Shown: one piece after another, positions 37,119 to 61,276 of the stretch | How positions within the stretch are numbered: position 1 is the first letter of the stretch | Layout: every line of letters starts with the position of its first letter | Origin: Sneathiella sp. HT1-7 | GTDB taxonomy: Bacteria; Pseudomonadota; Alphaproteobacteria; Sneathiellales; Sneathiellaceae | Length of the DNA stretch: 64,000 bases | Reading direction: 5' to 3' | NCBI RefSeq assembly: GCF_020731145.1 | Contig: NZ_JAJFZN010000001.1 | Coordinates: 682,001 to 746,000, forward strand | The notes under the pieces: generated by a model | What the model saw: the letters and a program-made list of their open reading frames with translations, nothing else | Told to the model about the DNA's origin: nothing | The model's database searches: none | Program-made: the position numbers and the translations under genes

Positions 37119-38315
37119 CTACTCACAGCCCGGCTCATCCTTTGCTATTTTATAAAGATGAGTTGCATAGGGGCCAAAATTATCCCGGAAAGATCTTGTG
37201 TCAGGAGAGAGTTCACGCGCCTCATCAAGCACTTCAATTCGATCAGTATTGAGGCCCTCCGGAAGACTGAACGACACTTCAGCAGGAAATTTACTGAGCG
37301 AGCCTGCAAAAATGTAGAGATGACAGTCATCCTGTTTCACCAGCGCAGAGACATGATTATAGGCATTTGAAACTGGCTTAACCGAGACGGCGTCCAGTAG
37401 ATTTTCGCTTTTCAAAACACCTGCCAGACTTTGCAGGCGTTGATTGATCGCCGTAATGGCATCCCGCAAGGCTAAATTATCCAGAAGAGACGCCTCGACA
37501 AATGTCGGAACAAACTCATGTACGAAATAAATGATCCCCTTCGCCCCGTGAATAATGCTGAGCCAGACGAGGCTTCGAACCTGGTCTCCTGTGAGCGTTA
37601 TCTCAGGATTTGAAACCCGGCTCGCCTCGATAACACTCCAGACAGGCTTTCTACCTCCCGACCAGCCAATCAGCCGATCGACGCCGCGGGCGACATAATC
37701 CAGACGTCCGCGGATCGCGGCATCCCGGTGCGAAACGGGGTAAATATCAAATGAAAGAATATCCGCCGCCCTTACATAGTCTTCATAGTCCTCCGGATGG
37801 TTGGTCCGTGTGCCGCGTCCATGCCATTGATCCCAAGCAACCCCCTGCCCAAGGTTTAGAAGAATTGGTCTTTTCGGATCGCGCGCCTTCATTTCCTGAT
37901 AATGCTGCAACAGGAAGTCGGGAGGAACCGGCGGACCAAGTCCGCCTCCGGTACGGGCCTGCGCATTGTCTGGCTCATCCGGCATCATCCATCCGGCAAT
38001 AATGTCGCGGTACTTTTCCTGCAGCGCGAGGTCATTCTGAGGCGTAAAAACGGGCATGTTCGCCGCCTGTAATTGCATCAGCTGCCGTTTTGTCGGACCA
38101 TCCCAAAGACCGGCGTAGAAATTTATCCCAATAGTTTTATAGCGTGCCGCATTTATCGGATCCTGTAGCCAGACCCCCACGGGAAATACGTCAGGCTGAT
38201 CCAGGAACCGGGCGGGCGAGAAGTCTTCTTGTTGCGCAAGGACTGAATGAAATGGAATGACAGCAAGGGAGGAAAGAAGAGCCGGTAACAATAAAAGACG
38301 AAGCCGCACCCTCAT
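37119..38315 (-). CDS. Secreted glycosidase-like (TIM-barrel) protein of unknown substrate
   Basis: A 398-residue protein. The first ~28 residues are a signal peptide (MRVRLRLLLLPALLSSLAV, cleavage near VLA/QQ). The body alternates strands and helices like a glycoside-hydrolase barrel and has acidic motifs near strand ends: IAGWMMPDEPDNAQ, DILSFDIYPVSH and PVWSVIEASRVSNPE. A C-terminal part (VSALVKQDDCHLYIFAG) looks like a small beta domain. The start at 38315 overlaps the phosphatase stop by four bases (ATGA); the longer frame to 38492 is antisense to the phosphatase gene. I cannot name the family. A periplasmic or outer-surface glycosidase role is inference. Confidence 0.6.
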   Translation of the reverse strand: MRVRLRLLLLPALLSSLAVIPFHSVLAQQEDFSPARFLDQPDVFPVGVWLQDPINAARYKTIGINFYAGLWDGPTKRQLMQLQAANMPVFTPQNDLALQEKYRDIIAGWMMPDEPDNAQARTGGGLGPPVPPDFLLQHYQEMKARDPKRPILLNLGQGVAWDQWHGRGTRTNHPEDYEDYVRAADILSFDIYPVSHRDAAIRGRLDYVARGVDRLIGWSGGRKPVWSVIEASRVSNPEITLTGDQVRSLVWLSIIHGAKGIIYFVHEFVPTFVEASLLDNLALRDAITAINQRLQSLAGVLKSENLLDAVSVKPVSNAYNHVSALVKQDDCHLYIFAGSLSKFPAEVSFSLPEGLNTDRIEVLDEARELSPDTRSFRDNFGPYATHLYKIAKDEPGCE

Positions 38316-39109
38316 AGGATTTCCTTGGATTCCCCTTCGAGAACAAGACAGGTCAGTATATTTGAATAAAAGGCCCCCGTATCGATTCCAATACGGTTTT
38401 CCTTGAACTCCGGCTCCGGAATGATGCTGTGCCCATGCACGATAACCTTGTCGAAAAGTCCCGTATGCTCCAAAAATTCGTCGCGGATCCACAGAAGATC
38501 ATGCTCTTTCTGATCATCGAGGGCTCGATCGGGCTCAATTCCGGCATGAACAAAAAGGTAATCGCCCATCATGTAGCTCGCTTCAAGTGAGCTTATGAAT
38601 TGCAAATGGGAATCAGGAAGGTTCTTTTTAAGCTTTTTTCCTGCCTCCCTGATCTTTTCTTCCGTCATTGCAGCAAGAGGCAGGTCAATGCCATAACTTC
38701 TAAGCGTTGCATCGCCCCCGTAATGGAGCCAGCGCTTGCCCCTCATCGGTCCTTGCAGAAAGGACGTCATCGCTGACTCATGATTTCCTTTCAGCGTAAT
38801 AACATTCATATCTGATTTTTTAAGCTCAATCAGCATATCGAGAACGCCGGAGCTATCGGGTCCACGATCCACATAGTCTCCGAGAAAAATAAGATGTGCC
38901 GCCATCTCTTTTCGCTGCGCCTGGTCTGCGGCGATCCGCTCCAGCAAGGAGGAGAGAAGATCCTTACGACCGTGAATATCGCCAATCACGTAGGCGCGAT
39001 GGCCGTCGGGCATCTTTGCCGCTCCAACTGAAACAAGCGACGACGGCTCGGTTTCGCACTCTTCCACCGATCGTCTGGAGATAAACTTGTTAAGCCTGGC
39101 TAAAGGCAT
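38312..39109 (-). CDS. Calcineurin-like Ser/Thr-type protein phosphatase (PrpA-like)
   Basis: A 265-residue cytoplasmic metallophosphoesterase. The metal-binding motifs are in order: GDIHG at 43-47, GDYVDRG at 77-83, GNHE at 108-111, then LFVHAGI and the C-terminal HGHS. WLHYGGDATLRSYGI and RIGIDTGA are typical of the PrpA/lambda phosphatase family. It is upstream of and coupled to the glycosidase-like gene by an ATGA overlap. Such phosphatases act on phosphoproteins or small phosphoesters; the target here is unknown. Confidence 0.9.
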   Translation of the reverse strand: MPLARLNKFISRRSVEECETEPSSLVSVGAAKMPDGHRAYVIGDIHGRKDLLSSLLERIAADQAQRKEMAAHLIFLGDYVDRGPDSSGVLDMLIELKKSDMNVITLKGNHESAMTSFLQGPMRGKRWLHYGGDATLRSYGIDLPLAAMTEEKIREAGKKLKKNLPDSHLQFISSLEASYMMGDYLFVHAGIEPDRALDDQKEHDLLWIRDEFLEHTGLFDKVIVHGHSIIPEPEFKENRIGIDTGAFYSNILTCLVLEGESKEIL

Positions 39110-39349: not shown

Positions 39350-39706
39350 TCACTGTTCCCAGTTCGAAATTGCCGCCTTACGGCGGCGGCCAAGCCAGAA
39401 AATTGCGCCCAACGCTCCGCCAAACAATAGTAGGGCTGGCGACAGGGGAACCAAATTCAAAAGCCCGTCACTTGCCGCATTCTCAACTATGCTACTTGTC
39501 GTCTGATCCTGAACAAGAGCGAAAGCCGCAGCCTGATGCGTGGAAGCCGCCGCCCCCGACTCGATAGGTCGGTTGACACTGGTGACGCCCGCAACAACCG
39601 TGTCGGCTGCATTTCCGTCAAGCGCAAGAGGCGCGCCGACGGCAACAGATACATATGCGAACAGCAGGGTCAGCATTGTCACTGTAATTTTACGAAAAAC
39701 CACCAT
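39350..39706 (-). CDS. Small exported protein with a PEP-CTERM-like C-terminal sorting tail (VPLSP)
   Basis: A 118-residue protein. The N-terminus is a signal peptide (KITVTMLTLLFAYVSVAVG, cleavage near residue 24). The middle (25-85) is small-residue-rich and low in complexity. The C-terminus has the three-part exosortase-type tail: VPLSP at 86-90, a hydrophobic helix at about 91-105 (ALLLFGGALGAIFWLG) and basic RRRK at 107-110. This resembles VPxxx-CTERM substrates. The XrtA-type exopolysaccharide genes lie 11-18 kb away, and the exosortase itself is not in the window. GGGAG precedes the ATG. It could also be just a membrane-anchored protein. Confidence 0.7.
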   Translation of the reverse strand: MVVFRKITVTMLTLLFAYVSVAVGAPLALDGNAADTVVAGVTSVNRPIESGAAASTHQAAAFALVQDQTTSSIVENAASDGLLNLVPLSPALLLFGGALGAIFWLGRRRKAAISNWEQ

Positions 39707-39768: not shown

Positions 39769-39865
39769 TACATGAATATGATGGCGCGCAAGATCGTGCA
39801 TCCCTCATATGGGGTATGGTTCTAAATAAATTTCAGCCAACACAAGAAATATGCCTTGCCGTAAA

Positions 39866-40538: not shown

Positions 40539-43250
40539 ATGGCAAACACGACAATTACAGTCTCTAATAGCGCGCAACTCAGTGCAGCACTTAGTAGCGC
40601 CACCGGTGGCGAAACTATTGTTTTGAACAGCGGCTACTATGGCGACTTAAATATATACAATGCGAACTTCAGTTCAGAAGTGACGATCACTTCCGCCAAC
40701 CCCGATAATATGGCGGTTTTCGAGACGATCACTTTTAATAATTCTTCAAACCTTACGCTTGATGCGATTGAGGTGGATTTCAACCCCACGGTCAATACAT
40801 ACTCGCATGAAAGCGGCGTACTGATTTCAAATTCGTCAGATATCACGATCCGCAACTCTCACGTAGAGGGCGACGTCGCCACACAGGACGGTGTCGGCAG
40901 CGTTGCTGGATATCCTGTTGGCCGTGGTATCACAGCCGAATATTCCCAGAATATAACTTTTGAGAACAACGACATCTCATACTTCCAGAAGGGCATTATC
41001 CTTATCGAAGCTGAGAATATCGATATCCTCAACAACTCGATCGAGAACCTTCGCCTTTCCCATATTGCTGGCGCAGATGTTCATGATGTAAATATTGATG
41101 GTAACTATCTTGGTGCCGTAACGCCTTACAACTATGGCGGCACAGGCGACCATGGCGACTACATCCATTTCTGGATTAACACCGGGCAGTCGCAGAACAG
41201 CAGCGACATCTCCATCACCAACAACTTCTTCGCAGAGGCCGAAGGTGACCGGATGATGGGCGTCTATCTTGAAGATCACTGGGGTGAGAGCGCCTCTTTC
41301 GAAGATGTCGTTATTGACAACAACGTTTTCCACCTTGCCGACCATCAGTCCATACTGGTCGAAGGCGCCCAGGGTATCGACATTACCAACAACACCATGT
41401 TGCAGAGTAGCGGCGAGCCAAATGATGCGCCGGGCGTTGTCTTGTCATTGGGTGTTTCCGGTGCAGTAATCACGGACAATATCTTCTCTGCCCCGATCGC
41501 CGAACTTACCAGCGATATTCAGATTGTCTCGGAATCGAACAACATCATTGTTCAGAACACTAACCCGAACGGCAGCAACTATGTCGGCGATCTTTTCGTC
41601 AACGCGCTGTCCTATAACCCAAGTCTTGCCGACTTGCAGGAAGCATATAACCTGAACACAGGCGCAGACCTGACTGAAGCCGGTACTGGCACGTCTAGCG
41701 GTGGAAATAACAATACGCCGGAAGAGCCTGTTGACGAAACTCCGGATGAGCCTGTTGACGAGACTCCCGATGAGCCCGTTGATGAGACTCCGGAAGAGCC
41801 AGTTGATGAAACCCCGGAAGAACCTAGCACCCCAGTTCCGCCAACGGATGATAATACGGAACCGACAACACCTGTTGAAACGTCTGTACTCATCAACGCG
41901 GCAATGAACGGTTCTGCTGCGAATGCGGCCGACGCGAATAGCAACGATGACACGGTTTCAAACAGTGTCTCCTTCGAACAGGTTGGAAACCGGGCTGCGG
42001 CGAAACTGAATGATGGAGTTATTATCTATGACGCCAACGACAAGTTTATCAATAACGAAGCCTACACCCTGACCTTCGATTTCAAGAAGGAAGCCGGCGC
42101 GGAAGATGCATCGGGATATGCGATCTATTATTCCTCCAGCTTCGTTGTGAAAATCAATGCCGACTCGATTATGGCAGCAGTTGTAACGTCAAACGGCACG
42201 AGCTGGGTCACCATCGATGATGTCGACGTCAACAACACAGACTGGCATCAGATGACTTTGACCTTCTCCGGAGAGGCTGGCGAAGCAGTTTTCTACGTCG
42301 ATGGCGAAGAAGTCGCGATGGTCTCCGGGCTTGAAGGTGCGACCCAGACTGGGAGTGCCTGGCATGACTTCTATGTCGGTGGCGAATTCGGCGATTCATT
42401 CGACGGCCTAGTCGACAATGTAATGTTTGCCCAAGGCGCCATCACGGCGGATCAGGCGACAGAAGCATACGAGGCGATGCTGGACGGCACCGAAACGCCG
42501 GAAGAGCCCGTTGATGAAACTCCGGAAGAGCCCGTTGATGAGACGCCGGACGAGCCCGTTGACGAAACTCCGGAAGAGCCGGAAGAACCCGAAGAACCTG
42601 TCGACGATGGCACCGGTAACACGGATATTCCTTCTCTGGATGACGAGCTTGAAATTGCTGCTCTTGATGAGTCTGCCGCCAATATTGGTGACGGAATAAT
42701 TAATCTTGGAATGGACGATGAATATTTCGGGATGGATGATTTCACGGCAAGCATCACTTTCTCATTGGATGGACTTGATGACGGCCGCCAGAGACTGCTT
42801 TGGAACCATACCAACTATGGCGTTCAGATCGAAGACGACGACCTTGTTGTCTATTTCTCTGAGGATGGCGGTCAGTTAAAGGTCTATACCTTTGCGAATG
42901 CCATTACGGATACGGACTGGCATGACGTTCAGTTAGTGCTTGATGATGACGCGGACACCTTCTCGATATTCCTGGATGGTCAAGCCCTGCAGGTCGATAA
43001 CGCCGTTACTGGCAGCGTCGCAGATGCCTCATGGTGGAATGTAACCGTCGGCGGGACCGAGTTCCAGAACACGGATGAGTTCCAGGGCAAGATTGCCGAC
43101 TACTCGATTATCGACGAGGCTCTTTATATCGATGAGAGTCAGTCAGTTTACGAACGGACAGCCTATATTGACTCTCACGATGACCTAAACGGGTCAAGCC
43201 TCGACGTCATTGGCGTTGCCTTGACGGAAGATTCACTAGACTTTGCCTAA
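40539..43250 (+). CDS. Large beta-helix/LamG surface protein, probable type I secretion substrate
   Basis: A 903-residue acidic protein with no signal peptide (it starts MANTTITVSNSAQLSAAL). Residues about 1-385 form a right-handed parallel beta-helix with many Asn-rich turns (SSDITIRNSHVEG, ENIDILNNSIENL). A Pro/Glu/Asp linker with 8-residue repeats covers 395-426. A LamG/ConA-like domain follows at about 450-640 (DWHQMTLTFSG, AVFYVDGEEV). A second linker is at 655-687 and a second LamG-like domain at about 700-890. The C-terminus ends EDSLDFA, acidic then hydrophobic, like some type I secretion tails. No RTX nonapeptides were seen. It could be a polysaccharide lyase/epimerase or an adhesin. 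Confidence 0.75.
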   Translation: MANTTITVSNSAQLSAALSSATGGETIVLNSGYYGDLNIYNANFSSEVTITSANPDNMAVFETITFNNSSNLTLDAIEVDFNPTVNTYSHESGVLISNSSDITIRNSHVEGDVATQDGVGSVAGYPVGRGITAEYSQNITFENNDISYFQKGIILIEAENIDILNNSIENLRLSHIAGADVHDVNIDGNYLGAVTPYNYGGTGDHGDYIHFWINTGQSQNSSDISITNNFFAEAEGDRMMGVYLEDHWGESASFEDVVIDNNVFHLADHQSILVEGAQGIDITNNTMLQSSGEPNDAPGVVLSLGVSGAVITDNIFSAPIAELTSDIQIVSESNNIIVQNTNPNGSNYVGDLFVNALSYNPSLADLQEAYNLNTGADLTEAGTGTSSGGNNNTPEEPVDETPDEPVDETPDEPVDETPEEPVDETPEEPSTPVPPTDDNTEPTTPVETSVLINAAMNGSAANAADANSNDDTVSNSVSFEQVGNRAAAKLNDGVIIYDANDKFINNEAYTLTFDFKKEAGAEDASGYAIYYSSSFVVKINADSIMAAVVTSNGTSWVTIDDVDVNNTDWHQMTLTFSGEAGEAVFYVDGEEVAMVSGLEGATQTGSAWHDFYVGGEFGDSFDGLVDNVMFAQGAITADQATEAYEAMLDGTETPEEPVDETPEEPVDETPDEPVDETPEEPEEPEEPVDDGTGNTDIPSLDDELEIAALDESAANIGDGIINLGMDDEYFGMDDFTASITFSLDGLDDGRQRLLWNHTNYGVQIEDDDLVVYFSEDGGQLKVYTFANAITDTDWHDVQLVLDDDADTFSIFLDGQALQVDNAVTGSVADASWWNVTVGGTEFQNTDEFQGKIADYSIIDEALYIDESQSVYERTAYIDSHDDLNGSSLDVIGVALTEDSLDFA
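41721..41816 (+). repeat. Four tandem 24-bp units coding [ED]EPVDETP
   Basis: Units start at 41721, 41745, 41769 and 41793 and differ mainly in the first residue (Glu or Asp) and at third codon positions. They form the acidic linker between the beta-helix and the first LamG-like domain. Confidence 0.9.
42501..42599 (+). repeat. Second array: three 24-bp [ED]EPVDETP units plus an EEP run
   Basis: Units start at 42501, 42525 and 42549, followed by three EEP triplets. It is the same motif as the first array, now between the two LamG-like domains. This suggests that the linker plus LamG module was duplicated. Confidence 0.9.
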
Positions 43251-46744: not shown

Positions 46745-48028
46745 TCAATCTTCACGCAACGCGCGGTTAAAACTGAGGATAATCGGATTGACGAAATAGT
46801 CCAAGGCGGTTCGCTCTCCGGTCAAAATCATGACATCCGCCTGCATGCCAGGGCGAAGCTGAGTGACCATAATTTCCGCATTCTCCAAATTCTCAATCTG
46901 GACGCGGGCCAGATAATAATAGCTGCCGGTGCGCTCATCCTCAATACTATCAGCGGACACGCTGAGCACCTTGCCCTCAGCAGGCAATGAAAACCGCTGG
47001 CTAAAAGCGGGGAAACGTATCTGGGCGGGAGCGCCGATATAAACAGAGTCAATATCTTTGGTATTGACCTGCGCCTCCACGATAAGTTGTACATTGTCCG
47101 GGACGATATCAAGGATCGTCTCACCTGGCTTGATGACGCCACCAGTCGTATGAACCTGAAGATTGACGACATAACCATCTGTCGGCGCCCGGATTTCCGT
47201 TCTGTCGAACACATCTTCGGAAGCGCGGGTCTGTTCTTCCAAATCAAAAATCTGCGCTTGCACATCCCGAAGTTCTGAAACAACTTCGTCAATCATCGCA
47301 TTGGAAAGCTCGTTTATCTGGAGTTCAACTTCGCCAATGGCCTGCCGGGTTTGTGCAATTCTTGAGATATTCTGGCTGCGGTTCCCGCTGAGCTCTGCAA
47401 GGTTACGTTGCAGCGCGCGAAGTCGGGGCCGTTTTGCAAGGCTCTTTTTAACAAGGCTTTCGACGTCCTTGATCTCCTCACGGATAAGGGAAATCTGTCG
47501 GTCGGACGAAGTGACCTGCCCTTCCAGGCCCTTGATTTCCTCTTCCAGCTGAGAGGCTTTTTGTTTCAGGATCGTGATTTGCCCTTCACGCGATGTCCGG
47601 CGGGAATCAAAAATATTCCGCTGCCCTTCCATCGCCTCCTTAATATTGGGCTCGTCTTTTCGTTCAAGCAGCCATTTGGGGAAAGTGATAGAGTCAAGAT
47701 TGTCCCGTTCTGCAATCAGGCGGGCTTTTTGCGCCAATGCAATAGCGCGACGGCTGCGGATAATTTCTACCGATGCTTTCGACTGTACTTCATCGAGAAC
47801 AATCAACACATCACCTTCGCTTACAAAGTCACCGTCCTTGATCTTGATTTCTGACACGATGCCGCCTTCAAGATGTTGGACAGATTTCCGGTTGCCTTCA
47901 ACGCTGACAACTCCCTGGGCTATAGCCGCGCTCCCGAGGGGGGCGAAAGCTGCCCAGCCGACAAATGCGCCAAAGAACAGAAAAATAATCACCAAGCCAA
48001 ACAAAACTGGCCCGCGCACATTCATCAT
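46745..48028 (-). CDS. Type I secretion periplasmic adaptor (HlyD/PrtE/PrsE family)
   Basis: A 427-residue membrane-fusion protein linking the inner-membrane ATPase to an outer-membrane TolC channel. One N-terminal helix (about 5-28) is followed by the lipoyl-type half motifs (RKSVQHLEGGIVSEIKIKDG), a long coiled coil at about 140-270, and the C-terminal barrel (EIRAPTDGYVVNLQVHTTGG). The ATG overlaps the upstream ATPase stop by four bases. No TolC gene is in the window. Confidence 0.93.
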   Translation of the reverse strand: MMNVRGPVLFGLVIIFLFFGAFVGWAAFAPLGSAAIAQGVVSVEGNRKSVQHLEGGIVSEIKIKDGDFVSEGDVLIVLDEVQSKASVEIIRSRRAIALAQKARLIAERDNLDSITFPKWLLERKDEPNIKEAMEGQRNIFDSRRTSREGQITILKQKASQLEEEIKGLEGQVTSSDRQISLIREEIKDVESLVKKSLAKRPRLRALQRNLAELSGNRSQNISRIAQTRQAIGEVELQINELSNAMIDEVVSELRDVQAQIFDLEEQTRASEDVFDRTEIRAPTDGYVVNLQVHTTGGVIKPGETILDIVPDNVQLIVEAQVNTKDIDSVYIGAPAQIRFPAFSQRFSLPAEGKVLSVSADSIEDERTGSYYYLARVQIENLENAEIMVTQLRPGMQADVMILTGERTALDYFVNPIILSFNRALRED

Positions 48029-50094
48029 CGTTTGATTTCCTCAATATATTTCAAGGCACCTGCCTGATCGCCTTTGACGAACAAGGAGTATATTTTTGAA
48101 ATATCTGCATCAGTTAGGGGTTGCGCTGTCAGAGATTGAATCTTGGCCTTGATTTTATCGCTCGGGCCCATGGTCAGCACAGCAGCCCGTGCTTTCGGCT
48201 TTGCCGCACTTCCATTTAGATGGGTACCATTGGTTTTGTGCAGCGTCGGTGCCTTCATCGGTTCGCGATAGGGCGCCCTATATTTCTTTGACACTTTGAT
48301 GTCCGATGTGGGGGTATAATCCCCCGTTCTTGTCGTTGGTGCGGCAGGCCGCGCCTCTTTTGATTGGTTTTTCTTGACCTGTACTGCCTGATTACCAGGC
48401 CCCGGCAATGCTCTTTGGACGCCTTGCAGCTTCATCATCACATCATCACGCGGCCCAAATTCCTGCATGATTCCGTCTTTCAAGACAAGGATCTTGTCGA
48501 CATGTTTCAAGATATTCGGGCGATGCGCAATAACAACAATCGTCATGCCCTCGGCACGGAGGTTATCCATCGCCCGCATTAGCGCCGACTCTCCAACACT
48601 GTCTAGATTGGCATTCGGTTCATCCAGAACGAGAAGGCTGGGATTTCCGTAAAGGGCGCGAGCAAGTGCAATGCGCTGCCGCTGACCGCCGGAAAGTGCC
48701 GCACCACTCTCACCGATTTCCGTCTCATAGCCCTTGTCCATCCGCAAGACCATGTCATGAATTCCGGCTTTTTTCGCAGACGCAATAACAAGTGCCGGGT
48801 CCCCATCATTCATCCGTGCGATATTTTCGCGAATGGTACCGGAGAAAAGCTCGATATCCTGTGGTAGGTAGCCGATATATTGGCCGCGGTCATCCGCGCT
48901 CCATTCCGCCACATCCATTTCATCAAGTCGGGCGTGGCCAAAGCGTGGCTTCAAATTGCCGACTAGCAACCGTACAAGCGTCGTTTTACCTGCTGCCGTC
49001 GGTCCGATGATGCCAAGAATTTCACCGGGCTCAATCCGGAAGTTGATATTACGGAGGATCGGCTCCTTGGTATTTGGATGGGTATAGCTCAAGCCCTCCA
49101 CCGCGACCACACCTTGCGGTCGGGGAAGTGGCATCAGATCCGTACCGGGCGGCGAGCTTTGTTCCAGCTGCGTTTTCAGCCGACTATAAGCTGCGCGTGC
49201 ACCCAGGAATCCTTTCCAGGAACCAATTGCTTGTTCAACCGGGGCTAGCGCGCGTCCCATAATAATGGAGCCGGCGATCATTGCACCCGGGCTCATCTCA
49301 GCCTGAATTACCAGCCAGGCGCCCGCCCCCGTCACCCCGATCTGCAACATCACCCGGACGAATTTGGAGGCCGCAGAGATAACGCCGCCCCGATCGCTTG
49401 CCTGCGCCTGCAGCGCAAGAGAATCTGCATGGCGGGTATTCCAGCGATTGATAAGCTGGGGCATCATGCCCATCGCCTCAATCACATCTGCATTACGCGA
49501 GGCGGTCTCCGCCTGCTTCATCGCCACCATCTGGTGACCATTAGATTCAGCAAGCAGCTTGCGCGTCGCCCGTTCATTGACAATTCCCAGAATGAGTAGA
49601 ATGATCGCACCGATGAGGGAAATCCATCCAAGGACCGGATGCAGCAGGAACATAACGCCAAGGAAAATTGGAGCAAAAGGTGCATCCAGAATCGGGAAAA
49701 TACCGGGACCCGTCAGGAATGACCGGAAATTGCCAAGATCACGAAGAGCCTGAACACTGGCTTCCCGACCTGTGGTCAATGTTGACATAATGCTTGCGGT
49801 GAGCGCCGCGCCACCGATCTGACTATCCAGCCAACGACTCATTCGCACAAGAATGAATGTCCGGACCCCCTCCAGCAGCGCCATGGTTAACAAAGCAAGG
49901 CCCGCAATCAGCATCAATAGGACGAGTGTATCAGTATTGCGGCTGGTAATAACGCGATCAAACACCTGCATCATGAACAGCGGTGCCGTTAACATCAGTA
50001 GATTAATGGCGAGGCCAAAAACTGCCAGGATTATGAAGACCCGGGAACATTTATCCAAAGTTTCCTTTAGAAGCGGGTTATTCTGTATGCTCAC
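48025..50094 (-). CDS. Type I secretion ABC transporter (PrtD/PrsD family) with a C-terminal extension
   Basis: A 689-residue inner-membrane export ATPase. Residues about 15-300 carry six membrane helices. The ATPase domain (about 330-560) has Walker A GPTAAGKTT, signature LSGGQRQRIALARAL and Walker B LLVLDEPNANLDS. There is no C39 peptidase domain, so the cargo is not a double-glycine peptide. PrtD-type proteins normally end about residue 575. The extra ~115 residues are Lys/Pro/Thr-rich and end in a helical segment (LTDADISKIYSLFVKGDQAG). It is first in an operon with HlyD and three glycosyltransferases. Confidence 0.93.
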   Translation of the reverse strand: MSIQNNPLLKETLDKCSRVFIILAVFGLAINLLMLTAPLFMMQVFDRVITSRNTDTLVLLMLIAGLALLTMALLEGVRTFILVRMSRWLDSQIGGAALTASIMSTLTTGREASVQALRDLGNFRSFLTGPGIFPILDAPFAPIFLGVMFLLHPVLGWISLIGAIILLILGIVNERATRKLLAESNGHQMVAMKQAETASRNADVIEAMGMMPQLINRWNTRHADSLALQAQASDRGGVISAASKFVRVMLQIGVTGAGAWLVIQAEMSPGAMIAGSIIMGRALAPVEQAIGSWKGFLGARAAYSRLKTQLEQSSPPGTDLMPLPRPQGVVAVEGLSYTHPNTKEPILRNINFRIEPGEILGIIGPTAAGKTTLVRLLVGNLKPRFGHARLDEMDVAEWSADDRGQYIGYLPQDIELFSGTIRENIARMNDGDPALVIASAKKAGIHDMVLRMDKGYETEIGESGAALSGGQRQRIALARALYGNPSLLVLDEPNANLDSVGESALMRAMDNLRAEGMTIVVIAHRPNILKHVDKILVLKDGIMQEFGPRDDVMMKLQGVQRALPGPGNQAVQVKKNQSKEARPAAPTTRTGDYTPTSDIKVSKKYRAPYREPMKAPTLHKTNGTHLNGSAAKPKARAAVLTMGPSDKIKAKIQSLTAQPLTDADISKIYSLFVKGDQAGALKYIEEIKR

Positions 50095-50432: not shown

Positions 50433-51065
50433 GTGTTTACACTTCTAAAGATAAAGTCCGTTGCCACTCGGACAATCTTGATTTCACTGGCACTGTTTGT
50501 TTCGGCCTGTGCGGCGCAAAATCAGGCGGCCTCGGATGCACCGGCTTCCTTGGGCACCGCGCCCCAGTATGTTATCGGACCACAGGATGAACTGGACGTT
50601 TTTGTCTGGCAGAATCCGGATCTATCCGTCACTGTTCCGGTTCGTCCCGACGGTCGTATCTCTACACCGCTGGTTGACGACATGGTGGCAGCGTCCAAAA
50701 CTTCTCAGGAGTTGGCACGTGACATCGAAAAATCTCTCTCCAAATATGTGAAAGATCCGCTCGTAACCGTGACTGTCCGTTCCTTCAACGGCCCGTATGA
50801 TCAGCAAATTCGTATTGTTGGACAGGCTTCCGAGCCCAAGGCCATTCCTTACCGCAACGACATGACAGTCCTTGATGCCATCATTGCGGTTGGCGGTATG
50901 ACTGAGTTTGCCGCTGGTAACCGTGCTGTTATCGTTCGTAACGAAGATGGTACAAAGAAATCCTATAGTGTTCGCCTTGATGACCTGATTGTTGATGGTG
51001 ATGTATCGGCGAACGTACCGCTGCTGCCCGGCGATATTCTCATCATCCCGCAAAGCTGGTTCTAG
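50433..51065 (+). CDS. Polysaccharide export lipoprotein (Wza-like, XrtA/PEP-CTERM-associated type)
   Basis: A 210-residue lipoprotein with GTG start. The signal sequence ends in LFVSAC, with lipidated C26. A Poly_export domain (about 45-120: YVIGPQDELDVFVWQNPDLS, VRPDGRISTPLVDDM) is followed by one SLBB-type domain (IRIVGQASEPKAIPYRNDMTVLDAI). The short form with one SLBB domain is typical of the exporters found with exosortase loci. It would form the periplasmic/outer-membrane exit channel. The beta-barrel gene follows 62 bases later. Confidence 0.9.
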   Translation: MFTLLKIKSVATRTILISLALFVSACAAQNQAASDAPASLGTAPQYVIGPQDELDVFVWQNPDLSVTVPVRPDGRISTPLVDDMVAASKTSQELARDIEKSLSKYVKDPLVTVTVRSFNGPYDQQIRIVGQASEPKAIPYRNDMTVLDAIIAVGGMTEFAAGNRAVIVRNEDGTKKSYSVRLDDLIVDGDVSANVPLLPGDILIIPQSWF

Positions 51066-51072
51066 GATTGGC

Positions 51073-51096
51073 GGCAATTTAGATTGCCGTTTGTTG
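51073..51096 (+). terminator. Weak hairpin between the export and beta-barrel genes, possible attenuator
   Basis: CGGCAAT-TTAG-ATTGCCG (7-bp stem, 4-base loop) followed by TTTGTT. The short T run suggests partial termination or mRNA processing rather than a full stop. Confidence 0.4.
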
Positions 51097-51127
51097 AGGG
51101 TGGAATAAAATAGAAGGTAGTCGCATT

Positions 51128-52594
51128 GTGCTAAATGCAAACCAGCTCGTTTTCGGAAAAAAATCACGCGTATCGCTGGCGATCGGATGTATCGTCGCCA
51201 GCGGAATGCTGATTCCGTCCGGAAACGCCCGGGCCGCAGAATGGATGTTCAGTCCCTATATCGGCTTGGGTGAAACATACACGGATAATGCTTTCGGCAC
51301 CTCTTCAGACAGAAAAGATGATTTTATAACAAACCTGAATGCCGGATTCACGATTGAAGGTGTCGGTCGCCGCATGCAGCTTACCGCCTCCTATGATCTT
51401 GGTTACGATATGTACGCGGAATATTCAGATTTGAATGGGTTCACACATAACCTATTAGGATCTGCAAAAACAGAACTGTTGGAAGAACATCTGTTTCTTG
51501 ATACGGAAATCGCCATAACGCAGGAGCGTTTTTCCAGTGACGGGGATACATCCTTTTCTGACCGGACAACATCCGGCGACAGTACGCGCGTCCTAAACAC
51601 ACGGATAAGCCCTTATTATCAGCATGACTTTGGCGGCTATGCGACAGGTATCGCACGCTATACCCACAGCATGGTCACTTTCACTGACACGAATTCCGAC
51701 ATTGCTTCGACGGAACCGTCTGATTCACAAACCAATAGGATTGATCTCAGCCTGCTGAGCGGGCGTGCTTTCTCCCGGACGAAGTGGGCAGCGGAAGCCT
51801 TTGCTCTCGACAACCAGGTCAACGACGGAGACGATTTCAAGCGTGCCACGTTCAAGGGCTCGGGCCAAATGCCGATCAATCGGTATGTTGCCCTGCTCGC
51901 ATCGGCGGGTTGGGATGAGTTCGACGGCGAAAATATTGACAACAATCAAATCAGCGGTGCCTTTTACAGTGGTGGCGTACGCCTCACTCCGGGTCCAAGA
52001 ACTGATTTGAGCGTTCAGGTCGGCCATCGTTTTGGCGGCGGCATGGTGGATGCAGATCTGACCTACCTGATCTCCAGCGAAGCAAGCCTTATTGCCGGAT
52101 ATCATGTGGACGTCGCTGGCTCTGGCGGAGATGCTTTTGCCAACACCGCAGTTCTGGACACGAATGGCAGTCTTTCCAACCCGAATTATTTCCCAGGCGG
52201 CTACACAGACGCCATTACCAAGTCCAAAATAGCAACGGTAGGACTGACCGGGGAAAAGGGACGCAATATATACTCTGCAACCGCCAGCTATATCACTCGC
52301 GATTTCTTGAGCGACGGCACGGATGAAGAAGTCATTTCCTTTGATGGTAGTTACTCAAGGCAGTTATCTCGCCGTCTCGAATGGTCTTTACTCGGCGGAT
52401 ATGCTGAAATCCTAGACTCGCAGGTTACTGGCGGCAAGGAAACAGCTTATTACGGGCAGACTGGCGTTAATTATCAGTTCTCGGCCACCCTGATAGGATC
52501 GCTTTCCTACGGCTATTACAATCGGGATGCAGAAACCGATATTGACGATCTTCGGGAAAATACGGTTTCCATTTCTGTTCGGAAAGAATTTTAA
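51128..52594 (+). CDS. Outer-membrane beta-barrel protein, PEP-CTERM-system-associated (TIGR03016-like)
   Basis: A 488-residue protein with GTG start. A signal peptide (SLAIGCIVASGMLIPSG, cleavage near ARA/AE, about residue 37) is followed by alternating beta-strands. The first is a diagnostic element (WMFSPYIGLGETYTDNAF). The last strand ends in a C-terminal Phe (ENTVSISVRKEF), as in outer-membrane barrels. This matches the family of barrels found next to the ExeA-like ATPase in XrtA exopolysaccharide loci; that ATPase is the next gene, convergent. It is probably the outer-membrane pore for the polysaccharide. Confidence 0.85.
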   Translation: MLNANQLVFGKKSRVSLAIGCIVASGMLIPSGNARAAEWMFSPYIGLGETYTDNAFGTSSDRKDDFITNLNAGFTIEGVGRRMQLTASYDLGYDMYAEYSDLNGFTHNLLGSAKTELLEEHLFLDTEIAITQERFSSDGDTSFSDRTTSGDSTRVLNTRISPYYQHDFGGYATGIARYTHSMVTFTDTNSDIASTEPSDSQTNRIDLSLLSGRAFSRTKWAAEAFALDNQVNDGDDFKRATFKGSGQMPINRYVALLASAGWDEFDGENIDNNQISGAFYSGGVRLTPGPRTDLSVQVGHRFGGGMVDADLTYLISSEASLIAGYHVDVAGSGGDAFANTAVLDTNGSLSNPNYFPGGYTDAITKSKIATVGLTGEKGRNIYSATASYITRDFLSDGTDEEVISFDGSYSRQLSRRLEWSLLGGYAEILDSQVTGGKETAYYGQTGVNYQFSATLIGSLSYGYYNRDAETDIDDLRENTVSISVRKEF

Positions 52595-52601
52595 GGCTTA
52601 C

Positions 52602-52659
52602 ACGCCGTCTGAAGCGAATGTGCGGTTAGACCGTCGATATGCTTCAGGCGGCGTTTGTT
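52602..52659. terminator. Hairpin terminator between convergent genes
   Basis: ACGCCGTCTGAAGC (52602-52615) pairs with GCTTCAGGCGGCGT (52641-52654) over 14 bp with one G-T wobble, then TTGTTTG. It lies between the barrel gene and the convergent ATPase gene and can serve both. Confidence 0.7.
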
Positions 52660-52663
52660 TGAC

Positions 52664-53614
52664 TTAGCCGTGCGAACGGAGCTTCTTGGCGATCAACTTT
52701 GCAAGCTCCTTGTCATGAATGACAAGCGCCGGTTGCTCTTTTTCCATTTCCTCTTTTGACTGAACCGGCAACCGGCGTGTATCTTCGGCCCCTTTCGGGG
52801 CGCCGACATCAAAAATACCATGAGTCTGCTTGTCGCGGATCACTTCATCGACGATGCCCCCGTCAATTTCTGGCGCCATGCGCGCGAACCCATATACCAG
52901 GCATGTATCGGCGAGGATATTAATTATCCGCGGAATACCACGACTTGCCTCGAACAGTTTTTCACAGGCATCCATAGTAAATAATGGCAAATCGCGTCCC
53001 GCAGTAGAAAGACGGTGCTTGATATAGGCATCGATATCCTCTGCGGTCAGCGGCGCAAGATGAAAATCTGACGCGATACGCTGCGCGAACTGGGTCAGTT
53101 CCGGCGCCTGCAACAACCCCTTCAACTGCGGCTGACCTACCAGGATCAACTGCAGGAGCTGGTCATTATCGGCATTGATATTGGAAAGAAGACGCAATTG
53201 TTCCAAAAGCTTAGGGCCCAGGTTTTGTGCCTCATCAACGATCAGAATTGTTCGGCGTCCCTCCGCATATTCGCGAATCAAAAACTGTTGTAGTTCATCA
53301 TGCAGCCCAACGTGGGACTTGCCTTCATACGCTTGACCAAAGGCCATCAGAACCCATTGCAGCAAATCTCCATCCTGAATATTTGATACCAGGCCAACAG
53401 TGAAATCTTCATCCAGCCGATCAAGAAGATGGCGGATAAGTGTTGTTTTACCACACCCGATTTCACCAGTAACAACCGTAAACCCCGCCCGGTTCATCAC
53501 CCCATATTCAAGCATGGAATAGGCGAGGGAATGGCTATGCCCCCAATAGAGATAGTTTGGGTCGGGCAGGATAGAAAAAGGTTTCTGATCCAGTCCATAA
53601 AATTCTCTATACAT
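52664..53614 (-). CDS. ExeA-like AAA ATPase, XrtA/PEP-CTERM-associated
   Basis: A 316-residue ATPase. The N-terminus MYREFYGLDQKPFSILPDP is typical of the ExeA/PEP-CTERM ATPase family. Walker A is GEIGCGKT at 50-57 and Walker B is ILIVDEAQ at about 123-130, with sensor and arginine segments downstream (LVGQPQL, FAQRIASDFHLAPL, SRGIPRIINILAD). In exosortase loci a gene of this family sits beside the polysaccharide export genes; its role is presumed to be assembly or gating. It lies downstream of the PrsT-like gene with a 53-base gap. Confidence 0.9.
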   Translation of the reverse strand: MYREFYGLDQKPFSILPDPNYLYWGHSHSLAYSMLEYGVMNRAGFTVVTGEIGCGKTTLIRHLLDRLDEDFTVGLVSNIQDGDLLQWVLMAFGQAYEGKSHVGLHDELQQFLIREYAEGRRTILIVDEAQNLGPKLLEQLRLLSNINADNDQLLQLILVGQPQLKGLLQAPELTQFAQRIASDFHLAPLTAEDIDAYIKHRLSTAGRDLPLFTMDACEKLFEASRGIPRIINILADTCLVYGFARMAPEIDGGIVDEVIRDKQTHGIFDVGAPKGAEDTRRLPVQSKEEMEKEQPALVIHDKELAKLIAKKLRSHG

Positions 53615-59398: not shown

Positions 59399-61276
59399 GT
59401 GACTTCTCGACATCTGATATTTTCATTCATGGCAATGGCTTGCGTTTGGACGACCCCCGCCATTGCACAGGATCTGTTCGTCGATTTCGAAAAAGGCAAG
59501 GACAGTAACAGTGGTATTACGAAGTCAGCGCCATGGCAGCATGCACCCGGTGATGCGAACGCGGCTTCGAATGCGGGTAGTTATAAACTACGCCCCGGCG
59601 ACGTCGTCAATTTCAAAGGCGGCGTTGAGTATCTGGGAAGCATCGCAATTCCGGCCGGCGGTTCAGACTCTCAACCCATCACCTATAAGGGTAACGGATG
59701 GGGAGAGGGTCGCGCAATCTTAAGCGGCGCCAAGGAGTTGAAAGCGACCTTCACACCCTGCGCCTCCGCCAGCGACTGCCACAACAACCCCAATTGGGAA
59801 AAACTGTTCAAATCCAGCTTGGAAGAAGATGTCAATCCCTTCACACCCATGTTCCTCTCTGACCGGCGAGTATGGATTGCGCGTGAACCTAATCAGCCGG
59901 ACCCATTCTGGTTTGACGATTATGAGCATTACAATGTAGTCGGCGGGGATGTTAATCGCTCTGTCATGGGCGCGGACTATCTCACCCTCGATAACGGTCT
60001 CGATAACACGGACGAAAAGAATTGGCAGAACGCGCGGATTGCGGTCTGGATGAAACCCAATCTTGTCTTGCTGACGGAAGTTACCGGAATTGATACGGCA
60101 TCAAACACGATAAAGTTCAATCCACCCGGCAATGATCCTTACACCGATCGCGAATCATACTATGCCCTGTTCAATCGCCCATCTGACGTCGACCAACCGG
60201 GGGAGTATTTTATCGATAATGAAGCGCGCCGGATCGTGATCTGGCCGGAAAACCCGGAGACGATGGAGAACAGCCGCCTCTATATCAACGAATTAGCCGC
60301 CGGCTTTAATATCAACGGGAGCAGCAATCTCGTGATAGAAGGGTTTCACATCCGCCACTATTTCGGCGATCATGACGGCTGGGCCAGCGGAACTGCAATT
60401 ATCAATTCGGATCATCCGGTCCGCAATGTTGTCATTCGCGACAACTATATCGACCATCTCCGCTCTGTTGAGGGAATTGGCGCGATCCAGCTTCACAAGG
60501 CACAGGATGTGGTTGTCAGCAACAATACGGTCACCAACAGTCAGAAAAGCTCGGGCATCCGGTTCGGTTTTTCAAAAGACATCATCATTCGCGACAATGT
60601 GATTCACAAGATAGGCCGGACGGGAATTCGCCTGATCGAGACAGAAAACATTCAGGTAACCGGCAATACTCTTTCGGACATTCTCGGTGTCCATGGCAAC
60701 GGCATGTCCGTTTACCTGAAGAACAAGGCGATCCTTGTTGCCGAAAATATGTTCGATAATGTGCCCTTTGCCTTCACCTATCACGGTACAGGGAATATCG
60801 AGGAAGCCAACAGCATGTGGCTTCTGAGCAATATTTTCCTGGGGCGCGTTCGCAGCTGGGGCAGCCAGTTCGGATCGATGCATTTTCTACATAATATGAT
60901 ACTGGCGGAAGTGGAGCCCGGCAAATCTATCCAGATTCCCGGCCATGAACCCTCTACCGTCTTCAAAAATAACATTATTGATGGCTTGATCGTCTCACCG
61001 GCGCCGGAGGATTGGGTTTTCTCCCATAATATCTATTCCGGGCTGAGCTGGTTGCAATCGTCGAAATATGGCTGGACCCTGGAGCCCGGCGGCGATATCG
61101 ACGAGGGAATTACGGATGAAATCTGGGGTTTCTTTTCAGAGAAGCAAGCGAACGTCGCGCGCGGACAGGGCGATAATATTTACAAACTGTTGCCCGTGGC
61201 CCGGTTTAAGGCCTATGATTTCAGCCACTGGAAAGAGGCGCGCGCCATTGGTCCCCGCGCCATCCCTAGTCCATAA
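59399..61276 (+). CDS. Exported right-handed beta-helix protein (NosD-like), possible polysaccharide-active enzyme
   Basis: A 625-residue protein with GTG start. The signal peptide covers about 1-24 (HLIFSFMAMACVWTTPAIAQ). A first part includes DLFVDFEKGKDSNSGITKS, the entry motif of many beta-helix polysaccharide lyases, and YKLRPGDVVNFKGG. Residues about 290-520 give the repeat-bearing helix (NVVIRDNYIDHL, DVVVSNNTVTNS, DIIIRDNVIHKI, NIQVTGNTLSDI). Unlike the 903-residue beta-helix protein it would use Sec. Its place in the polysaccharide locus suggests trimming or epimerising the polymer; no catalytic residues can be assigned. Confidence 0.8.
   Translation: MTSRHLIFSFMAMACVWTTPAIAQDLFVDFEKGKDSNSGITKSAPWQHAPGDANAASNAGSYKLRPGDVVNFKGGVEYLGSIAIPAGGSDSQPITYKGNGWGEGRAILSGAKELKATFTPCASASDCHNNPNWEKLFKSSLEEDVNPFTPMFLSDRRVWIAREPNQPDPFWFDDYEHYNVVGGDVNRSVMGADYLTLDNGLDNTDEKNWQNARIAVWMKPNLVLLTEVTGIDTASNTIKFNPPGNDPYTDRESYYALFNRPSDVDQPGEYFIDNEARRIVIWPENPETMENSRLYINELAAGFNINGSSNLVIEGFHIRHYFGDHDGWASGTAIINSDHPVRNVVIRDNYIDHLRSVEGIGAIQLHKAQDVVVSNNTVTNSQKSSGIRFGFSKDIIIRDNVIHKIGRTGIRLIETENIQVTGNTLSDILGVHGNGMSVYLKNKAILVAENMFDNVPFAFTYHGTGNIEEANSMWLLSNIFLGRVRSWGSQFGSMHFLHNMILAEVEPGKSIQIPGHEPSTVFKNNIIDGLIVSPAPEDWVFSHNIYSGLSWLQSSKYGWTLEPGGDIDEGITDEIWGFFSEKQANVARGQGDNIYKLLPVARFKAYDFSHWKEARAIGPRAIPSP

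Follow-up and report, generated by a model that had tools for sequence, protein, structure and literature searches.

PEP-CTERM proteins, in the original description, are exported proteins that combine a near-invariant PEP motif, a helix and a basic end, and that are paired with an EpsH-type enzyme (Haft 2006, PMC1569441). The small Sneathiella protein considered here resembles the PEP-CTERM proteins of exopolysaccharide (EPS) loci, PepA (PMC9850573) among them, in its tripartite C-terminus and, putatively, in being exported and associated with polysaccharide; unlike PEP-CTERM proteins, it has no Pro-Glu-Pro. Work on PepA records more bound and less soluble polysaccharide when this protein is overexpressed in an rpoN1 mutant, and its authors suppose flocs to persist at least partly without pepA (PMC9850573).

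With the VPLPA-CTERM/XrtD system (TIGR03370/TIGR04152) the protein has in common a signal-peptide-like start, a tail of motif, helix and basic end, and an XrtD in the genome that scores over the model cut-off; it differs in that a serine breaks the PLP (VPLSP), so that VPLP does not precede the helix. The sorting-signal model TIGR03370 matches one of the 12 members of the protein's family (E 0.017) and not the protein itself, although such models are weak on short tails, a canonical 207-aa VPLPA protein also falling under the TIGR03370 cut-off (22 vs 25.35). EppA (NF046088) is, by its name, likewise a small EPS-associated membrane protein, but its model does not match our protein, and among the relatives only an orthologue of a second small family, in genome G020, is matched, weakly (14.6 bits, cut-off 90). 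Literature searches found no paper on exosortase together with XrtD, and a search for Sneathiella with exopolysaccharide gave neither term in any title or abstract. As the protein appears to show all PEP-CTERM features but the motif, we do not class it among the VPLPA-CTERM proteins; judged from its sequence, it nevertheless most likely works like one, as a substrate of XrtD.

The small protein and its conserved tail

The gene lies in the window, i.e. the whole 64,000-nucleotide stretch that was analysed, and is divided as follows.

39350 to 39706, minus strand: small-protein gene, 118 amino acids plus stop; open reading frame with ATG start, 12 orthologues, dN/dS below 0.3 in all regions
39635 to 39706, minus strand: signal-peptide-like N-terminus, residues 1-24, judged by eye; model helix 2-23
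39455 to 39634, minus strand: low-complexity middle that looks disordered, residues 25-84; pLDDT below 50 at 23-73 and 75-84; the fastest-evolving part
39434 to 39451, minus strand: VPLSPA, a drifted sorting motif, residues 86-91; P90 and A91 are its sole invariant residues across the 12 members
39392 to 39436, minus strand: hydrophobic helix, residues 91-105; L94, F95, A98, A101, I102 and W104 invariant in 12 of 12; model helix 90-114
39377 to 39391, minus strand: basic end GRRRK, residues 106-110; all 12 members keep G106 and R109
39353 to 39376, minus strand: extension AAISNWEQ, residues 111-118; W116 kept in the eight closest members

The open reading frame with a signal-peptide-like start, low-complexity middle and VPLSP-helix-GRRRK tail, first picked out in a preliminary description, is a real conserved gene, present in 12 genomes of the genus. 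Its product has a hydrophobic N-terminus and a low-complexity middle followed by VPLSPALLLFGGALGAIFWLGRRRK and then AAISNWEQ, the C-terminus as a whole reading LVPLSPALLLFGGALGAIFWLGRRRKAAISNWEQ; the RRRK tail described earlier is thus present but not terminal, the eight residues beyond the basic cluster having been absent from that account. An AlphaFold2 model built from eight sequences, of poor quality (mean pLDDT 55.3), places helices at 2-23, 33-41, 56-76 and, at modest confidence, 90-114. The helix followed by a basic cluster that characterises VPLPA-CTERM/XrtD substrates is nonetheless found here, both in the invariant residues (P90, A91, L94, F95, A98, A101, I102, W104, G106 and R109) and in model helix 90-114. 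The tail is the most constrained part of the protein: among the four closest members dN/dS (Nei-Gojobori) is 0.25 for residues 1-25, 0.26 for 26-84, 0.04 for 85-110 and 0.09 for 111-118, the last value resting on few sites.

No Pfam family matches the protein at E ≤1. A protein search of 60 genomes, comprising 24 of the genus (the 3.83 Mb genome that carries the gene included) and 36 others, gave matches in 19, all within Sneathiella, and none of the 36 non-genus genomes holds the family. Reading the proteins individually left 12 family members in the 24 genus genomes, the target genome counted, with identities to the target from 79% down to 23%; the remaining matches have the tail in common or, in two cases (L003/L020 type), resemble the second small family. 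A wider contig search returned 14 loci, several of them tail-only, annotated as Sneathiella, Sneathiellales or merely Alphaproteobacteria/Proteobacteria, and relatives on plasmids were not found. Among cultured species, S. sedimenti and S. litorea each have an orthologue. Used alone as query, the protein retrieves tails from proteins whose front parts are unrelated, e.g. in G008 (67% over residues 82-114, E 7.8e-8).

Genomic setting and upstream element

The surroundings of the gene, and the elements upstream of it, are these.

38312 to 39109, minus strand: metallophosphatase-like neighbour (Pfam Metallophos), marking the conserved position; adjoins the family member in all 11 relatives
39775 to 39780, minus strand: CATATT, a possible -10 box, exact in 9 of 12 members
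39798 to 39812, minus strand: CCATATGAGGGATGC, an element forming part of a palindrome; all 12 members carry it, with no more than one mismatch to a 14-base core
46745 to 50094, minus strand: type I secretion adaptor and ABC transporter genes (TIGR01843, TIGR01842, over cut-off)
50433 to 53614: start of an exosortase-type polysaccharide gene set; TIGR03027 and TIGR03016 on the plus strand, a TIGR03015-like ATPase on the minus strand

By position the gene belongs to the exosortase/polysaccharide locus. The metallophosphatase homologue is followed in all 11 relatives by a homologue of the gene at 37119 and then, in 10 of the 11, by NAD-glutamate dehydrogenase, the available stretch of G022 ending short of that gene. 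On the opposite flank an HlyD gene is reached in six relatives (G001, G009, G013, G015, G020 and G022), the flanks covered in the remaining relatives being shorter; in G009 and G022 no homologous gene comes between HlyD and the family member, whilst in the target genome the two are separated by glycosyltransferases and a 903-aa protein. The exosortase sits on the family member's contig at equal distance in G017 and G021. Neither G002 nor G010 showed a family member; G002 has a rearranged junction, and in G010 XrtD directly adjoins HlyD. The EPS-type locus that the preliminary description placed nearby does begin there, at 50433, about 10.7 kb from the gene, and the synteny with it is kept; of the XrtA-system models, TIGR03027 and TIGR03016 score over cut-off in it, and TIGR03015, TIGR03007, TIGR03018 and TIGR03108 under.

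Two larger proteins are encoded in the same region. The 903-aa protein (40539-43250, plus strand) has LamG and NosD-like (beta-helix) matches and EEPVDETP repeats and, lying near the type I secretion genes, is possibly their cargo; a 625-aa protein with a right-handed beta-helix match (59399-61276, plus strand) lies within the polysaccharide locus.

Upstream of the gene is a palindromic element that is nearly private to the family. Its 14-base core CATATGAGGGATGC is exact in eight members and has one mismatch in the other four, starting 74 to 112 bases upstream of the chosen start codon, and CATATT may act as part of a promoter. The 15-mer YCAWATGRGGGATGC has 16 exact matches in the 24 genomes vs 0 for a reversed control, and in 12 cases a family member follows. 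The remaining four lie upstream of a glycosyltransferase-like ORF (G018), upstream of an uncharacterised ORF (G012), at a contig end (G005) and inside an ORF (target genome); the G018 case hints at a polysaccharide regulator. A large regulon was considered and rejected: with one mismatch allowed, a 12-base core gave 18 matches in the target genome vs 4 for the reversed control, most of them overlapping ORFs of at least 120 aa, and the best sites upstream of the three other tail genes of that genome have 3 to 5 mismatches of 12. The family differs from pepA (PMC9850573) as to sigma-54, a simple pattern having found no sigma-54 site in seven upstream regions; control by sigma-54/PrsR was discarded on this ground.

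The exosortase and its association with the family

The genome encodes a single exosortase.

G000:C1:752510-754051: XrtD, 6.5 kb beyond the window end and about 31-31.5 kb from the small-protein gene

It is of XrtD type (TIGR04152, 455.9 bits vs a cut-off of 400) and carries its Cys, Arg and His motifs as CAGLR, NSIR and HLFEG; XrtA was rejected as partner, since TIGR03109 reaches 182.4 bits vs a cut-off of 208 and the XrtD model wins. The exosortase pairing proposed earlier, for which an enzyme-free genome would have been fatal, is accordingly supported by the presence of an enzyme in the genome but not as to its XrtA type.

Exosortases were found in 17 of the 24 genus genomes, one in each, and the family occurs in 10 of these 17 and in two of the seven without a detected exosortase. 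In seven genomes family gene and exosortase share a contig, about 28-36 kb apart. The active-site motif of XrtD (loci L001, L037-L052) divides the genus into CAGLR (11 genomes) and CSGLR (six), and the family is present in 10 of the 11 CAGLR-type genomes and in none of the six CSGLR-type, an association that amounts to a single split of the exosortase tree, in which some of the nodes joining the 17 sequences are weak (e.g. 0.35, 0.47). Genome G018 (99% complete) has 30 tail proteins and no exosortase match, which is either evidence against strict pairing or an assembly gap.

A 28-position tail profile gave four matches in the target genome at E ≤0.05, the first three being rows of the profile itself: the target, a second small protein (C4:753522), an IPLPA protein (C1:274342) and the 207-aa VPLPA protein (C1:646375). 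The preliminary description would have been undermined had no other protein borne the tail; three others do, two of them with the standard [VI]PLPA. Across the genus the number of profile matches per genome ranges from 0 to 30.

Readings of the drifted motif

The preliminary description took VPLSP for a possible new subtype, which the orthologues contradict: position 4 varies among the 12 (Ser in seven, Pro in four, His in one), position 2 is Pro in eight, and within the motif only the following Pro-Ala is invariant, whilst helix and basic end stay. The VPLSP tail is a variant of the known exosortase-tail kind and not a new system. The full PLP is retained in two of the 12 members (G001 and G012, both VPLPP), whereas it is present in 40 of 40 other tails read, these being the smaller part of those found by the profile, related to one another, and counted after L138 and L148 had been judged on reading not to be tails; Fisher values for the loss of PLP (4e-9, 8e-8) overstate the evidence, the tails being profile-picked, mutually related and a partial sample. 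In the second small family (G000:C4:753522-753596, L003:1189-1584, plus strand; 131 aa in the target genome, unlinked to the locus and ending in helix-RRRK) the motif is even more worn, PLP being present in two of 10 members grouped by eye; on the exosortase tree intact VPLP is seen in G002 and G020 and is lost in the clade of the target genome. Each of the eight copies read of the 207-aa family retains AVPLPAALPLYG, which leaves XrtD with strict candidate substrates in these genomes. Genome G013 had seemed, at E 0.05, to combine XrtD with motif-less substrates only, which proved false when an AVPLPA protein emerged at E 0.15.

We consider it somewhat better than an even chance that the protein is a small exported product of the XrtD locus and an XrtD substrate with a loosened signal. 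We count in favour of this the homology of its tail to the VPLPP tails of otherwise unrelated proteins, the low dN/dS of that tail (0.04 vs about 0.26 elsewhere), an XrtD over cut-off with its Cys, Arg and His motifs, the single-contig linkage in seven genomes, the co-occurrence with CAGLR-type and not CSGLR-type enzymes, the two members with full VPLPP, and genomes G006 and G023, which have neither exosortase nor tails. Against it count the absence of any matching NCBIfam family at E ≤10, the contrast in PLP with the other tails, the seven exosortase genomes without the family gene, and the two genomes with the family and no detected exosortase, G015 (94% complete) and G009 (65%). For archaeosortase, a related enzyme, permuting the PGF motif reportedly blocks cleavage, to go by the title of one paper, and this too weighs against an XrtD substrate.

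On this reading the protein would be exported by Sec and lose its N-terminus to signal peptidase, the cut falling, at a guess, before APLALDG; the C-terminal helix and basic end would keep it in the inner membrane, its motif facing the periplasm, where XrtD would cut near VPLSP/A, and some 65 residues of flexible chain would be set free to the envelope or polysaccharide. By analogy with PepA, the chain might help to hold polysaccharide to the cell.

The main alternative, that this is a former exosortase substrate which is no longer cut, its motif worn and its helix a permanent inner-membrane anchor, perhaps contacting polysaccharide or the type I secretion machinery, is a serious but less probable one. 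Motif positions 1-4 drift in the 12 orthologues with helix and basic end kept, the second small family behaves alike, strict VPLPA substrates persist in the same genomes, and a conserved extension follows the basic end, all of which speak for such an anchor. However, the helix is very like that of canonical tails, a likeness that a mere anchor would not need, P90-A91 is invariant, and the position-4 Pro in G001, G015, G012 and G020 indicates that the motif is not simply decaying.

Processing of the drifted tails by another intramembrane enzyme, e.g. rhombosortase, is highly improbable: one orthologue of the second family comes near the IPTL-CTERM cut-off (19.6 vs 20.5), so that tails can drift towards other signal classes, but none of the 12 family-bearing genomes has a rhombosortase over the TIGR03902 cut-off, which removes the GlyGly-CTERM system as partner, and the rhomboid matches that all 12 have under the cut-off of 84 bits (best 45.6) occur likewise in 14 of 14 control genomes.

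Were XrtD to cut these tails, the two small Sneathiella-clade families would mean that an exosortase signal can lose its signature motif whilst the helix stays under strong selection, that XrtD reads chiefly the helix and a Pro-Ala cap, that motif searches miss real substrates, and that one of these families is controlled through a palindromic promoter element of its own, a combination that we advance only as a speculative, rather unlikely whole. Exosortase substrates are found by their short motif, and the results suggest that motif-only lists may be incomplete. With its drifting motif and steady helix, a conserved family bordering an XrtD locus lends itself to testing what XrtD recognises, and one genome holds canonical and drifted tails side by side.
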